Shown one piece after another: positions 1 through 5,465 of a stretch of 32,766 nucleotides of DNA. The notes under the pieces were generated by a model, which saw only the letters and a list, made by a program, of their open reading frames with translations, did not search any database and was not told the origin of the DNA. The translations under genes and the position numbers were made by a program. This DNA comes from Thermoproteota archaeon (GTDB lineage Archaea > Thermoproteota > Thermoprotei > Thermoproteales > Thermocladiaceae), in contig JAADCU010000028.1 in the NCBI GenBank assembly GCA_013154355.1, positions 1 to 32,766 on the forward strand, read 5' to 3'. The first letter of the stretch is position 1. Every line of letters starts with the position of its first letter.

Positions 1-42
1 GGAGATTTCAGAGAACCAGAAGATGAGATAGTGTTAACATGA
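1..42 (+). CDS. 3' tail of an upstream gene truncated by the window edge (ends ...GDFREPEDEIVLT*)
   Basis: Frame 1 is open from base 1 to TGA at 40-42; the other two plus frames are stopped earlier. The stop overlaps the cas6 ATG (ATGATG), as in a coupled operon. Only 13 codons are visible. Confidence 0.4.
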   Translation, partial: GDFREPEDEIVLT

Positions 43-926
43 TGTTCATAATAAGCATAAAGGTGAGTATTAGACCACGTGAAGATGTTCCGCTACCATC
101 AGTATCTTCAAGAGTTTCAAAAATGATATTGATTAGAGCTCTAGAAAACATCGGCAATGAGAAGGCTTTAAAGATAGTTGAGCTTCTTAGAAAAGGCTCA
201 CCATTAACTAGAGCTCCAGTTAAGCCTATAAGAGTGAGCTTCATACAGGATGGAGAGAGACCACTATGGGAAGAGTACGATAAGAGACCTATCATGAGAG
301 CTGGTAGAAGGTACAGTTTTAAGGTAACGTTATTTGATTCTGATAATGTTAGAGATAGACTCAAGATAAGCACGAGTCTAGACGTTATTGCAGAACTTCT
401 TGAGAACTTTTCTGGAGAGTTTAAGATATTTAAGTTTAATACAGTAGAGGTAAGTACTGACAGCATAGAGGCGGTGACAGAAGATCAACTATATGATAAT
501 TCTAGCTATGATACTGCTATAATACAGTTTCTCACTCCAACGTTTCTACAGTATCCTCATCATCCTAAAATTCGAGGATATCCTACAAGACATACCCTCT
601 ATCCTCAACCAATGTTATTCATGCTCTCTCTAGTGTATAAGTGGAATAATCTTGCTGATTCTCACATGAGCATAGCACAGGCTCTATATGCTCCATATGA
701 GATAATTGAGGTCAGTCATGGAATAAGACCAGTAACATTACAGTTTAGAAAGATTAGAGAGCGAGGTTTTGTAGGCTGGATCAAGTATGGTATAGATTCT
801 AAGAGCTCTAGAAGATATGAGAACTATATAAAACTTCTAAACTTTGCTAACTACATAGGTGTAGGTAGATCTACAAATATAGGTCTAGGAGACGTAAAGG
901 TGGTATTGAGGAGGAGAGGTAGATGA
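39..926 (+). CDS. cas6: CRISPR-associated endoribonuclease Cas6
   Basis: C-terminal glycine-rich signature NYIGVGRSTNIGLGDVKV; FLTPTFLQYPHHPKIRG...YPQPMLFMLSLVYKWN and GFVGWIKYGI segments typical of crenarchaeal Cas6. Start may be 39 or 42. Confidence 0.85.
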   Translation: MMFIISIKVSIRPREDVPLPSVSSRVSKMILIRALENIGNEKALKIVELLRKGSPLTRAPVKPIRVSFIQDGERPLWEEYDKRPIMRAGRRYSFKVTLFDSDNVRDRLKISTSLDVIAELLENFSGEFKIFKFNTVEVSTDSIEAVTEDQLYDNSSYDTAIIQFLTPTFLQYPHHPKIRGYPTRHTLYPQPMLFMLSLVYKWNNLADSHMSIAQALYAPYEIIEVSHGIRPVTLQFRKIRERGFVGWIKYGIDSKSSRRYENYIKLLNFANYIGVGRSTNIGLGDVKVVLRRRGR

Positions 927-1999
927 GTGTTAAGGAGGTCATAGTTAACACGTTGTTAGAGATATCTAAGATGATTGGAGACATAGTTGAGGAGGATGAT
1001 GTAGATGTTAGTGAAGACGTTAAGGGAAGCATAATAGAGGTAGAGTATGTAGATAACGTGATAGATAAGATAAGCAGATTAGAACCTGTAGATAGAAAGT
1101 TCTGGGGACTTGATGCATCTATAAGAACTCTAAGAGTTGCAGGTCTAGATCTCATGCTTGTGGCAGGAGCTCTCGTCGGCTCAAGAATTGAAATATGTCC
1201 AAGACTGGTGGACACTAGATGGATAGGAATCAGACCGAGATGTAGAGCAAGTAAAGAGCTTGAAAATATTTTAAATAGATTAAGCTCAACATTCTACACA
1301 AAGTCGAGATTCATTGACAAGGTGTTTGATGGAACATTCAGTGAGAAGACTATGCAGGACGAGATGAGAGTAAGCATGGAGAACGAGATGATAAGGAGAT
1401 GGGATGGTTCAGATGTGCTTCTAGTAGATGGTCCACTATTTCATACTCCAAAGGTCATAGCTACAGTAGAGAGCATGTACTCAAACATCTATATAGGTCT
1501 CATAAAGGAGAGAATAAGACTACTTGAGAACAGAGAAGACAAGGTTGTATGTGTTGTGAAGAGGCTTACACAGAGTAGATATCTTGCAAGACTTGAAGGA
1601 TTAGGAGCATCTGATGATTATATAGCAATAATCAAGGCTAACAAGATACTCAAGAGAGGAGAAGTAGCATCAGTATACATAGGTACTTTAAGACTTACAG
1701 TAACTATAGAAGATCAGAACTTTGAGAAATATATGGGATATCTTGTATCTAGGATAGGATCAGCCCTCAACGTCATAAGACTTGAAACATTGAGCGAGGA
1801 CTTCCTGTACGAGATCAAGGATCAGATAGCTCAGATACTTACTCATAATGGAGTTCCCAAGCCCATAGAGCTAGCTGACAAGGCCTGTAAGAGAGCATGC
1901 TCAAGCATATTTCTCTATCTCTGGAGCATAACTCCTCTAAGTCCAACATATGAGGGATTTGAATCACTTGTGAGCTCTATAAGAGAGCTAGCTGAGTAG
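923..1999 (+). CDS. nurA: NurA-domain nuclease
   Basis: NurA-like acidic motifs WGLDASIRTLRVAGLDLMLVAGALV and VLLVDGPLFHTPK; ATGA overlap with cas6; next to a HerA-type ATPase. Confidence 0.75.
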   Translation: MSVKEVIVNTLLEISKMIGDIVEEDDVDVSEDVKGSIIEVEYVDNVIDKISRLEPVDRKFWGLDASIRTLRVAGLDLMLVAGALVGSRIEICPRLVDTRWIGIRPRCRASKELENILNRLSSTFYTKSRFIDKVFDGTFSEKTMQDEMRVSMENEMIRRWDGSDVLLVDGPLFHTPKVIATVESMYSNIYIGLIKERIRLLENREDKVVCVVKRLTQSRYLARLEGLGASDDYIAIIKANKILKRGEVASVYIGTLRLTVTIEDQNFEKYMGYLVSRIGSALNVIRLETLSEDFLYEIKDQIAQILTHNGVPKPIELADKACKRACSSIFLYLWSITPLSPTYEGFESLVSSIRELAE

Positions 2000-2054
2000 G
2001 AGAGCGTAATATTTATCCTAATGTTCCTCATGATAGTTACAGTGAACTGAGTAT

Positions 2055-3947
2055 ATGGAGGTTGCTCAGTGTAGAGAGTATGTAGACTGTAGGGAGTACA
2101 TAGCTGTTGTAAGTCGACAACTTCCAAGTAGGGTAGCTCTAGAAGAAGCTAAAGTTCATGCAATAACTGACTGTTCTCAGGAATCCATTAACATATCTGT
2201 AGGCTCTTTCCTAGTAATAGAGTCTCGCTCACGTAAGTATCTTGCACGTGTATCAGAGATAGTTACACAGGACATATATGCCATATCTAAGACACCTGTA
2301 ATATCTCTCGAGCAGGAGCTAGCTGTTGATCTTTCACCACTTCCAAGACTTATAACCCTTGACCTAGTGATAGAATGTGTAGATGATAGATGTTCAGCAC
2401 CTATGACTCCAGTTGACATACATTCTCGCGTAAGATTTCCCAGAGATGGAGAGGTCTCTAAGATGCTTGGATTACCAGAACATGGAATAGAGATCGGAAG
2501 CTTATCACTTCCTACAGGAGAAGAGTTGAAAAGTGAGAGAGTTAGACTTACAGAACAAGCCTTGAGACATCACATCCTTGTTGTTGGAACAACAGGTAGT
2601 GGTAAGACAGTGTTCTTGAAGAATCTCATCTATGAGATACTGAGAAATAGGATAGGTAGAGCAGTAGTCTTAGACGTTGTTGGACATTATCATCATATAG
2701 TATCTAGCGATGTTAAAAAGATAGCGGTGATACTTCCAATAACATCAAGACTACTGAACCTCATAATGAGGAGAATAGAACTTAAAGAGAGTGAGGAAAG
2801 CTCAGAACTAGTTAGAGAGTTTGTTAGAGAAGTATCAAGGAACATAGCTGACATGTACTTCAGAAACGTGTTCAGAGGCTTCGGACTCAGATACAGGATA
2901 AAGAGGATAAAAGTATCATATAGGTTCAACAAGGATAGAAGACTAGTAATAATCAGTAGACTAATCATAGATGCAGCGATAGAAGATAATGATGTTCAGA
3001 TAATAATATACCCATGGGCACTTACTACAGGTAACGTAATACTCATACTTCCTAGATTATCAGCTGTCTTCACTGCTCAAGCAAGAATGTTCTATAGAAA
3101 GATACTTCTAGAGCTTGTTAGGGAATACTTGAAGAATCGTAAAGGAGAACATTCGACGGCTGAGAAACTTGATTATAATAATCTTGTTAGAGAGGTTAGA
3201 AAACATGGAATTACTCTAAGAGAGCTCTACGATTTCATGTTTCATAGTCTTGATCAGATGGGTAGGAGAAACATAATGGTTTATCAGTATATTGCTGATA
3301 AGATAGGTGTTCATAAGGGTACTCTAGAGAATATAATTAGAGGATTTCTATCATTAATAGAGACTGACCTCTTTGACGTATCCTTATGTGTAAGTATTGA
3401 AGGTTATGGTGATCTAACCGTAGAGATAACTGAGCCTAACTATGATGAAGTATTTAGAAACGATTACGTGGTGCTCGATCTAAGAGAGACATCTATAGCA
3501 CAGGAGAGATTAGTAGTGTATAGGGTATTGGATAGGTTATATAAGTTTGTTGAAAAAGAATGGATAAGAAGAGGAGGTAAGCGTGAAAGTGTGATAATAG
3601 CCATAGATGAGGCTCATCTATTCTTTCCTCAGACTCGTGAAGAGTCTGAGAAAGAGCTCGTAGAGAGATACCTAACAATGCTAGCTAGGCTAGGCAGGGC
3701 ACGTGGTATAGGTCTAGTGTTTGCTACTCATAGTCCAGATGATTTGAACGATCTTGTTCTACAGCTTACTAATACTAAGATAATTCTGAGAAGTGAAGAG
3801 AAGATTCTTGAGAAGCTTGGAGTACCTGCTAAGGAGAGGAGGATACTTATTCTTGCACCTCCAGGTCTAGCCTATGTTAGATCTTTCATATATAGGATGC
3901 CTATACTTGTCAAGCTTGATCCAGCTAAGACAATACATGTTGGATAG
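2055..3947 (+). CDS. herA: HerA-family (DUF87/FtsK-HerA) DNA translocase ATPase
   Basis: Walker A VVGTTGSGKTVFLKNLIYEI, Walker B VIIAIDEAHLFFPQ, LARLGRARGIGLVFATHSPDDL sensor region; N-terminal beta-rich (HAS-like) region. Confidence 0.85.
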   Translation: MEVAQCREYVDCREYIAVVSRQLPSRVALEEAKVHAITDCSQESINISVGSFLVIESRSRKYLARVSEIVTQDIYAISKTPVISLEQELAVDLSPLPRLITLDLVIECVDDRCSAPMTPVDIHSRVRFPRDGEVSKMLGLPEHGIEIGSLSLPTGEELKSERVRLTEQALRHHILVVGTTGSGKTVFLKNLIYEILRNRIGRAVVLDVVGHYHHIVSSDVKKIAVILPITSRLLNLIMRRIELKESEESSELVREFVREVSRNIADMYFRNVFRGFGLRYRIKRIKVSYRFNKDRRLVIISRLIIDAAIEDNDVQIIIYPWALTTGNVILILPRLSAVFTAQARMFYRKILLELVREYLKNRKGEHSTAEKLDYNNLVREVRKHGITLRELYDFMFHSLDQMGRRNIMVYQYIADKIGVHKGTLENIIRGFLSLIETDLFDVSLCVSIEGYGDLTVEITEPNYDEVFRNDYVVLDLRETSIAQERLVVYRVLDRLYKFVEKEWIRRGGKRESVIIAIDEAHLFFPQTREESEKELVERYLTMLARLGRARGIGLVFATHSPDDLNDLVLQLTNTKIILRSEEKILEKLGVPAKERRILILAPPGLAYVRSFIYRMPILVKLDPAKTIHVG

Positions 3948-3950
3948 GAA

Positions 3951-3960
3951 TATTTAATTA
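3951..3960 (+). promoter_or_regulatory. Candidate TATA box for the CARF gene (TATTTAATTA)
   Basis: Centre lies about 27 bp upstream of the GTG at 3982, the spacing expected for a leaderless archaeal transcript. Confidence 0.5.
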
Positions 3961-3981
3961 TGACAACTGTAGAATATTACT

Positions 3982-4848
3982 GTGAATAAGAAGGTTGCTC
4001 TACTTGTCACTGTTGGAACATCAATACTTTCTAATGCTTCTAATCGTGAAGAAGTTCCAAGAGAGTTTAGAGATGTTCTTAAGAAGGTTCCAAAAATGAG
4101 GCCTGACGATCCTAATCAAGTAGTGTTTAGAGAGGCCTACTTAAGTCAGAACGAGAATTATAGAGTAATATATGATCTACTATGTAGAGACCCACGTACC
4201 ATGTCTGCTGAGCTTAACGTGATCATAGGTTTTCTAGATACGTGGCCTCTTCGAAAGTATATTACAGAGCTTAGAATATATCTATACCCTACCGATACTG
4301 ACAGTTGCAGATTCTGCGCATACTTGATAAGAAGGTTCCTTGAGGAGAAGCTGAGAAGCTTCGTACCTCTAAGCGATGACTGTAAGGTGACTGTAGAGAT
4401 GGTAGAGTTGAAGGGGTTTGGTGCTTCTCCAGAGTTCTTCAGCTTCAGTGGGGAAGGATTGAAAGATCTGTTAGACAAGTACGCTAAGAACATACTTGAG
4501 CTAAAAGAGAAAGGATATAGAATCATAATAATGCCAGTAGGAGGATACAAGCCAGAATGCACCTATGCGACCATAATAGGACTCATGTTTGGAGCTTCTA
4601 AGGTAGTGTACATACATGAAAGTTTTAAAGAAGTTATAGATCTTCCACTACTTCCAATAGACGTTGATCCAAGATTTATACAAGTTGCTTCAAAGATAGG
4701 AGATGATGAACTACCAAGATCGGTAATAGAGATGCTTGGTGTAGATGTTGATGAGCTTCTTGATAGAGGAATACTTGAGAAAGGTGGTGAAGGTTATCGT
4801 CTAGCTGAGTGGGTCAAGAGTCTACTTAGAGCTAAAGGTCTTCTCTAG
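3982..4848 (+). CDS. CRISPR-associated CARF-domain protein, APE2256/Crn1-like (putative cyclic-oligoadenylate ring nuclease)
   Basis: N-terminal VALLVTVGTSILSNASN and IIIMPVGGYKPECTYATIIGLMFGASKVVYIHE, typical of CARF/APE2256 family; C-terminal wHTH-like tail (RSVIEMLGVDVDELLDRGILEKGGEGYRLAEWVKSLLR). GTG start. Confidence 0.75.
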   Translation: MNKKVALLVTVGTSILSNASNREEVPREFRDVLKKVPKMRPDDPNQVVFREAYLSQNENYRVIYDLLCRDPRTMSAELNVIIGFLDTWPLRKYITELRIYLYPTDTDSCRFCAYLIRRFLEEKLRSFVPLSDDCKVTVEMVELKGFGASPEFFSFSGEGLKDLLDKYAKNILELKEKGYRIIIMPVGGYKPECTYATIIGLMFGASKVVYIHESFKEVIDLPLLPIDVDPRFIQVASKIGDDELPRSVIEMLGVDVDELLDRGILEKGGEGYRLAEWVKSLLRAKGLL

Positions 4849-5160
4849 AAGCTTTAGAAGAGGATAGTCAGGATTTAGGCGAATAGATTTAGAGATATCT
4901 CTTGGAGATATGCAGGGTAGTCCTCTCACATATATTGCTCTATTAGAGAATCCTGGCTCAGCTACCTTAAATATTCTGATTATTCCCCACTTTAATAGTT
5001 CGTTAACGTCTATTCTAGCGAGATCTTCAACATATATTGCTACGTCTAGAAGAGGCTCATATGTTAGACCTATGGAGAAGGCTAGTGCAAGAGGACCGAG
5101 GGTCCACTCTACTCCTCTCTTATTCAATTCCTCGTAGAGTAGCAGTATGCCATGTCTCAT
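4822..5160 (-). CDS. Small hypothetical protein, downstream partner of the AbrB-like gene
   Basis: 112 aa ORF, 4-bp overlap with the upstream AbrB-like ORF; 27-bp convergent overlap with the CARF gene. Confidence 0.65.
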   Translation of the reverse strand: MRHGILLLYEELNKRGVEWTLGPLALAFSIGLTYEPLLDVAIYVEDLARIDVNELLKWGIIRIFKVAEPGFSNRAIYVRGLPCISPRDISKSIRLNPDYPLLKLLEKTFSSK

Positions 5161-5465
5161 TCTTCTGCTGTTGGTCTTCTGATCTCTAAAACCTCTATCT
5201 CATCTCCTGGCTTTATTCCATATCTGTCTCTAACGTCTTTAGGTATTGTGAACTGTCTTGAGTCTGTGTGTCTTGTTCTGAGTAGTCTAGCGTTTCTTAT
5301 TGTTATTATCTGGTCTCTATATCTTATAACTATGTCAGCGTATCTCCAGCTAGTAATGCCGAGGGTTCGTACTAGCTTAGCGGGTATTAGCACTTGATTG
5401 TTCACGTACACCTTCACTCTGTACGGTAGGCTCGTTATGTCGTACCCTTTTGCTCCTCTCCTCAA
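5157..5465 (-). CDS. AbrB/SpoVT-like swapped-hairpin DNA-binding protein, apparently with two hairpins
   Basis: SRQFTIPKDVRDRYGIKPGDEIEVLEI is a typical AbrB domain; the N-terminal VYVNNQVLIPAKLVRTLGITSWRYADIVIRYRDQIITI looks like a second, divergent copy. Confidence 0.75.
   Translation of the reverse strand: MRRGAKGYDITSLPYRVKVYVNNQVLIPAKLVRTLGITSWRYADIVIRYRDQIITIRNARLLRTRHTDSRQFTIPKDVRDRYGIKPGDEIEVLEIRRPTAEE

Follow-up and report, generated by a model that had tools for sequence, protein, structure and literature searches.

A NurA-HerA pair associated with CRISPR loci in Thermoproteales lies in line with adaptation genes and two CARF genes

The stretch of DNA analysed here (the window; 32,766 bases from the start of contig C115 in G000, the draft genome of a heat-loving archaeon that is 69% complete and in 121 contigs) begins with cas6, nurA, herA, and a CARF gene, the downstream part of an operon whose full order, as read from contig overlap and a sister genome, is csa1-cas4-cas1-CARF-cas2-cas6-nurA-herA-CARF. 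The explanation that we favor, with roughly even confidence, is that its NurA-HerA pair would be a CRISPR-dedicated translocase-nuclease for double-stranded DNA (dsDNA) that breaks down invader DNA in parallel with type III signaling, and that, where it is co-operonic with adaptation genes, it probably feeds Cas4-Cas1-Cas2. A shared operon does not prove a shared function.

Base 1 of the window is a contig end. The 3′ end of cas2 occupies bases 1 to 42 of the plus strand (frame 1, GDFREPEDEIVLT followed by a stop) and matches the C-terminus of Cas2 in the sister genome G003; this is the gene tail that the original prediction had noticed overlapping cas6, and its overlap with the cas6 start is 4 bp. 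Four plus-strand genes then follow in a row, with the ATGA overlap that had been described between cas6 and nurA (4 bp, 923 to 926). They encode the crRNA-processing endoribonuclease Cas6 (295 aa; 39 to 926), a NurA nuclease of the CRISPR clade (358 aa; 923 to 1999), a HerA hexameric DNA translocase of the CRISPR clade (630 aa; 2055 to 3947), and, from a GTG start, a CARF protein of the APE2256/Crn1 type (CARF7; 288 aa; 3982 to 4848). Gaps of 55 and 34 bp follow nurA and herA, respectively. No CRISPR array was found in the window, whose contig begins inside cas2, and an Rfam search of the window returned no match. Convergent with the CARF gene, the minus strand at 4822 to 5465 encodes a 112-aa protein without a Pfam match and a 102-aa MazE/AbrB-type protein. 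These two genes are kept in genomes G001 and G003 and are possibly a toxin-antitoxin-like pair.

The upstream part of the operon was found on a second contig of the same genome. Bases 1 to 91 of contig C63 are identical (100%) to window bases 91 to 1, and C63 carries csa1, cas4, cas1, a gene for a 279-aa CARF protein, and cas2 (PF09827, E = 7.6e-13), all in the orientation of the window genes. The same nine genes stand on one contig in G003. From the 91-base overlap and the sister contig of G003 we infer that C63 joins C115, and thus that, as on the G003 contig, nurA-herA is in same-strand continuity with cas1-cas2-cas4. Overlaps of 4 bp link csa1 to cas4 and cas2 to cas6, as they do cas6 and nurA, and the second CARF gene, which sits between cas1 and cas2, overlaps cas2 by 19 bp. 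The absence of upstream cas genes, which would have counted against the original prediction, was not borne out: cas genes are present, but those directly upstream are csa1, cas4, cas1, and cas2 and not type III effector genes, which in the window genome lie on other contigs (C8, with a GGDD-bearing Cas10, C21, and C50) and not adjacent to the module. Beyond csa1 on its upstream side, contig C63 (at its end) and contig C10 of G003 (at its start) run on for no more than about 100 bases, the pattern expected if assembly had stopped at a CRISPR array.

The identities proposed for Cas6 and the CARF protein were borne out by Pfam profiles and, for Cas6, also by NCBIfam. Cas6 matches the Pfam families Cas6 and Cas6_N (PF10040 and PF17952; 5e-18 and 1.5e-12), scores 69.4 bits on the NCBIfam equivalog TIGR01877, above its cut-off of 58.65, and matches PADLOC Cas6a (2.5e-36) and the PDB entry of a Cas6 (4ill). 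NurA matches PF09376 (3e-20) and, over nearly its full length, PADLOC PDLC01056 (5.7e-62), one of the "Type III coevolved" models that probably originate from Shah et al. 2019; its acidic residues D64, E147, E153, and D169 are invariant among 15 homologs. A phmmer search of NurA against PDB sequences gave no match, so the fold was compared instead, and the best PDB matches of the AlphaFold2 model (pLDDT 89.5) were all NurA. The central domain of HerA matches PF01935 (5e-11), and nearly the whole protein matches the "Type III coevolved" model PDLC01055 (4.1e-147). Its Walker A motif GTTGSGKT (178 to 185) and its DEAH motif (518 to 521) are invariant in 15 sequences, and the AlphaFold2 model (pLDDT 85.0) has HerA 4d2i as its best PDB match.

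The 288-aa CARF protein is a probable cyclic-oligoadenylate ring nuclease, judging from its family and conserved residues. It matches Cas_APE2256 (PF09651, 2.8e-31), PADLOC CARF7 (4.1e-66), and PDB 7pq2 (8.6e-29), and its S14 and K190 align with the two residues that are changed in 7pqa. It thus resembles the Crn1 ring nucleases (Sso1393, 3qyf; Sulfolobus islandicus Sis0811, 7pq2) in domain family and in both active-site residues, and their winged-helix C-terminus is weakly detected in it, but identity to them is low. Because it scored 95.3 bits on the Crn1 equivalog NF040951, below the cut-off of 600, we name it Crn1-type and not a Crn1 equivalog. Both active-site residues (Ser and Lys) are also kept in the 279-aa CARF protein encoded between cas1 and cas2, whereas in the Pyrobaculum/Thermoproteus group two short CARF proteins have Asn at the Lys position.

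In many archaea NurA and HerA work together in repair. The window genome carries such a canonical pair on contig C120, in the order nurA-herA-mre11-rad50, and neither mre11 nor rad50 occurs at the window locus. The window pair is therefore a paralog, as the original prediction had supposed, and not the only HerA-NurA pair of the genome. On the "Type III coevolved" HerA model the window HerA reached 489 bits versus 86 for the canonical HerA, which scores higher on other PADLOC HerA models than on this one; on the repair HerA equivalog NF040819 the window HerA reached 53.8 bits against a cut-off of 970. In phylogenetic trees the CRISPR-linked sequences form one clade, with support of 95/94 for HerA and 100/99 for NurA.

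That clade unites the window pair with pairs of 20 other Thermoproteales genomes, the module being present in 21 of 45 genomes of the order. A CARF gene adjoins the nurA-herA pair in 21/21 loci, and CRISPR arrays are present in 11 of these 21. Genomes of the Caldivirga, Thermocladium, and Vulcanisaeta types have the orthologous pair next to csx1, cmr, or cas10, and those of the Pyrobaculum type have it next to a cas1 operon or an array. Near the module we found csx1 with a cmr/cas10 operon (loci L047, L050, L052, and L073), cas1-csa1-cas4 (L045, L057, L058, and L062), and cas6 (the window, L044, L045, L055, L057, and L058). Two copies that look damaged were also seen. On contig C6 of G015 (L173:7005-10581), which also carries Cas10, the order is CARF-csx1-nurA with nurA truncated to 273 aa and herA absent from the stretch, probably a broken module. 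On contig C39 of G011 (L048:10347-11345) nurA reads as frameshifted close to the start, and herA and the CARF gene are open; such a state would accord with decay once type III genes had been lost, but an assembly error is possible.

CRISPR-linked pairs were also found beyond this clade. A short metagenome contig (JAADEY010000046.1; L142:1127-7353) carries nurA-herA-csa1-cas1-cas2-cas4 in one direction; at L127 the pair lies between cas4 and csa1, together with csx1; at L141 it adjoins a CARF gene and cas4; and in G337 (L178) it adjoins CARF genes and csa1. In trees in which some branches are long, L142, L127, and L141 fall outside the Thermoproteales CRISPR clade. The presence of phylogenetically separate pairs at CRISPR loci suggests that NurA-HerA has become joined to such loci repeatedly. 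The linkage is not general for NurA-HerA, since most of the other Sulfolobales and Desulfurococcales pairs that we examined had no clear CRISPR neighbor. At L187:6349-10628, Sulfolobales-type herA and nurA genes are convergent and stand beside csx1, with no other cas genes detected.

To assess co-occurrence across the order, presence was called from Pfam families for Cas10, RAMP, Cas1, and Cas7. With kinship among the genomes ignored in every comparison, type III genes were present in 19 of 21 module-bearing versus 12 of 24 other genomes (Fisher p = 0.004; p = 0.056 for genomes at least 90% complete), cas1 in 16/21 versus 11/24 (p = 0.066), and type I cas7 gave p = 0.23 in the comparison of module-bearing with other genomes. 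Genome G005, a single contig that is 99% complete, holds an intact module and Cas10 and had no cas1 match, and G008 (98% complete) has the module and RAMP genes, also with no cas1 match; cas1 is broken or partial in G006 and G035. Five genomes have cas1 without type III genes (G003, G010, G023, G040, and G044), and the module is absent from all of them except G003. No type III genes were detected in two module-bearing genomes, G003 (88% complete), which has cas1, and G011 (97%), in which cas10, RAMP, and cas1 all went unmatched. Conversely, an intact module is missing from six genomes that carry type III genes and reach a completeness of 90% or more. In G003 the Cas10 match is just a 217-aa protein that lacks GGDD, and we did not score it as type III. 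The HD and GGDD motifs of Cas10 were considered as a separator of module-bearing from other genomes and discarded, nearly all Cas10 proteins having GGDD. A 210-aa protein on contig C14 of the window genome (L169:5234-5866) has a weak Cas10 palm-domain match with TGDN instead of GGDD and had no PADLOC match; two further genes of about 250 aa follow in line, and similar small matches occur in G001 and G003. Together, gene order points to adaptation and co-occurrence to type III, so that the evidence points both ways. The link to type III that the original prediction supposed is an association across genomes and not an adjacency to effector genes in the window genome.

Under the explanation that we favor, the HerA ring, a hexameric dsDNA translocase, and the NurA nuclease would form a CRISPR-dedicated dsDNA exonuclease that enters from the ends of invader DNA, degrades both strands, and works alongside type III signaling, while the Crn1-type CARF proteins would degrade cyclic oligoadenylate and end the response. 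In bacteria, RecBCD products feed spacer acquisition, and the fragments released by NurA-HerA would probably do likewise wherever csa1-cas4-cas1-cas2 belong to the same operon, as they do here. This reading is supported by the operon continuity, the neighboring genes, the constant CARF gene, the type III association, the case of G005, the lack of the module in four of the five genomes with cas1 but no type III genes, the separate CRISPR-linked clades, and a 2026 study in which HerA-NurA of Thermococcus kodakarensis cleaved both dsDNA strands exonucleolytically from their ends and whose authors, citing the Pyrobaculum cluster, propose an antiviral use (PMC12977600). It is weakened by G003 and G011, by the six type III genomes without an intact module, and by the loss of strength of the type III association among the most complete genomes. 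We also considered, as a rather improbable extension, that the CARF proteins could be more than off-switches and one of them a cyclic-oligoadenylate-sensing partner of HerA-NurA, such that type III recognition would switch on the exonuclease and the fragments would pass to the co-expressed Cas4-Cas1-Cas2; if true, this would couple type III alarm signaling to memory formation.

The nearest competitor, to which we give about half the credence of the favored explanation, confines the pair to adaptation, where it would make or trim prespacer DNA for Csa1/Cas4-Cas1-Cas2 and have no role in interference. It draws support from the unbroken same-strand run of csa1-cas4-cas1-cas2-cas6 into the pair in both the window genome and G003, from the arrangement in the separate lineage L142, from the nearness to cas1 operons in Pyrobaculum-type genomes, and from Pyrobaculum islandicum, which lacks both the adaptation genes and the module (PMC3396285). 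However, G005 and G008 keep the module with no cas1 match, cas1 is damaged or partial in G006 and G035, and the association with cas1 is weaker than that with type III genes. Genomes that keep the module and lack cas1 are in this respect a natural test between adaptation and interference. Repair of the array is a decidedly unlikely alternative: HerA-NurA would mend the chromosome at a CRISPR array after spacer insertion through homologous recombination, as discussed by Bernick et al. (PMC3396285), which would suit the 11 module loci with arrays. It leaves the constant CARF neighbor and the type III link unexplained, the genome already has an Mre11-Rad50-linked pair, and an enzyme that degrades both strands, as in T. 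kodakarensis (PMC12977600), is ill-suited to resection. Least probable by far is a housekeeping repair pair lying near cas genes by chance. Such a reading would accord with the common role of NurA-HerA, yet it is disfavored by the canonical locus on C120, by the HerA scores, and by the separate clade of the window pair.

The module itself is already cataloged, both in the literature (PMC3396285) and in the PADLOC "Type III coevolved" models. In 2012 Bernick et al. reported that Pyrobaculum, Thermoproteus, and Vulcanisaeta carry a nurA-csm6-herA cluster close to CRISPR arrays, and they proposed that it is connected with adaptation (PMC3396285); NurA and HerA are listed among putative CRISPR auxiliary genes (PMC10910872). 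The window locus shares with that cluster adjacent nurA and herA genes of the orthologous CRISPR clade, an APE2256/csm6-family CARF neighbor, a CRISPR locus, and a separate repair-type paralog elsewhere in the genome; P. oguniense TE7 (G036) is common to both sets. It differs in its order, cas6-nurA-herA-CARF, unbroken from csa1-cas4-cas1-CARF-cas2, and in the second CARF gene between cas1 and cas2. The window proteins match the PADLOC models, and HerA fits the "Type III coevolved" model far better than it fits the other PADLOC HerA models, but the neighbors in the window genome are adaptation genes and not effector genes, and the library makes no functional claim. The bacterial anti-phage systems SIR2-HerA and HerA-DUF4297 likewise couple a HerA-fold translocase to a nuclease for defense, whereas here the partner is NurA and the pair lies inside a CRISPR operon. 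New here are the unbroken run from the adaptation genes into the module, the CRISPR linkage of NurA-HerA pairs from separate clades, and the evidence on type III versus adaptation. The cluster has had no assigned function since its description in 2012, and the unbroken operon, with its two ring-nuclease-type genes, and the separate clades make it directly testable whether archaeal CRISPR has a counterpart of the RecBCD spacer source and whether cyclic-oligoadenylate signaling reaches adaptation.
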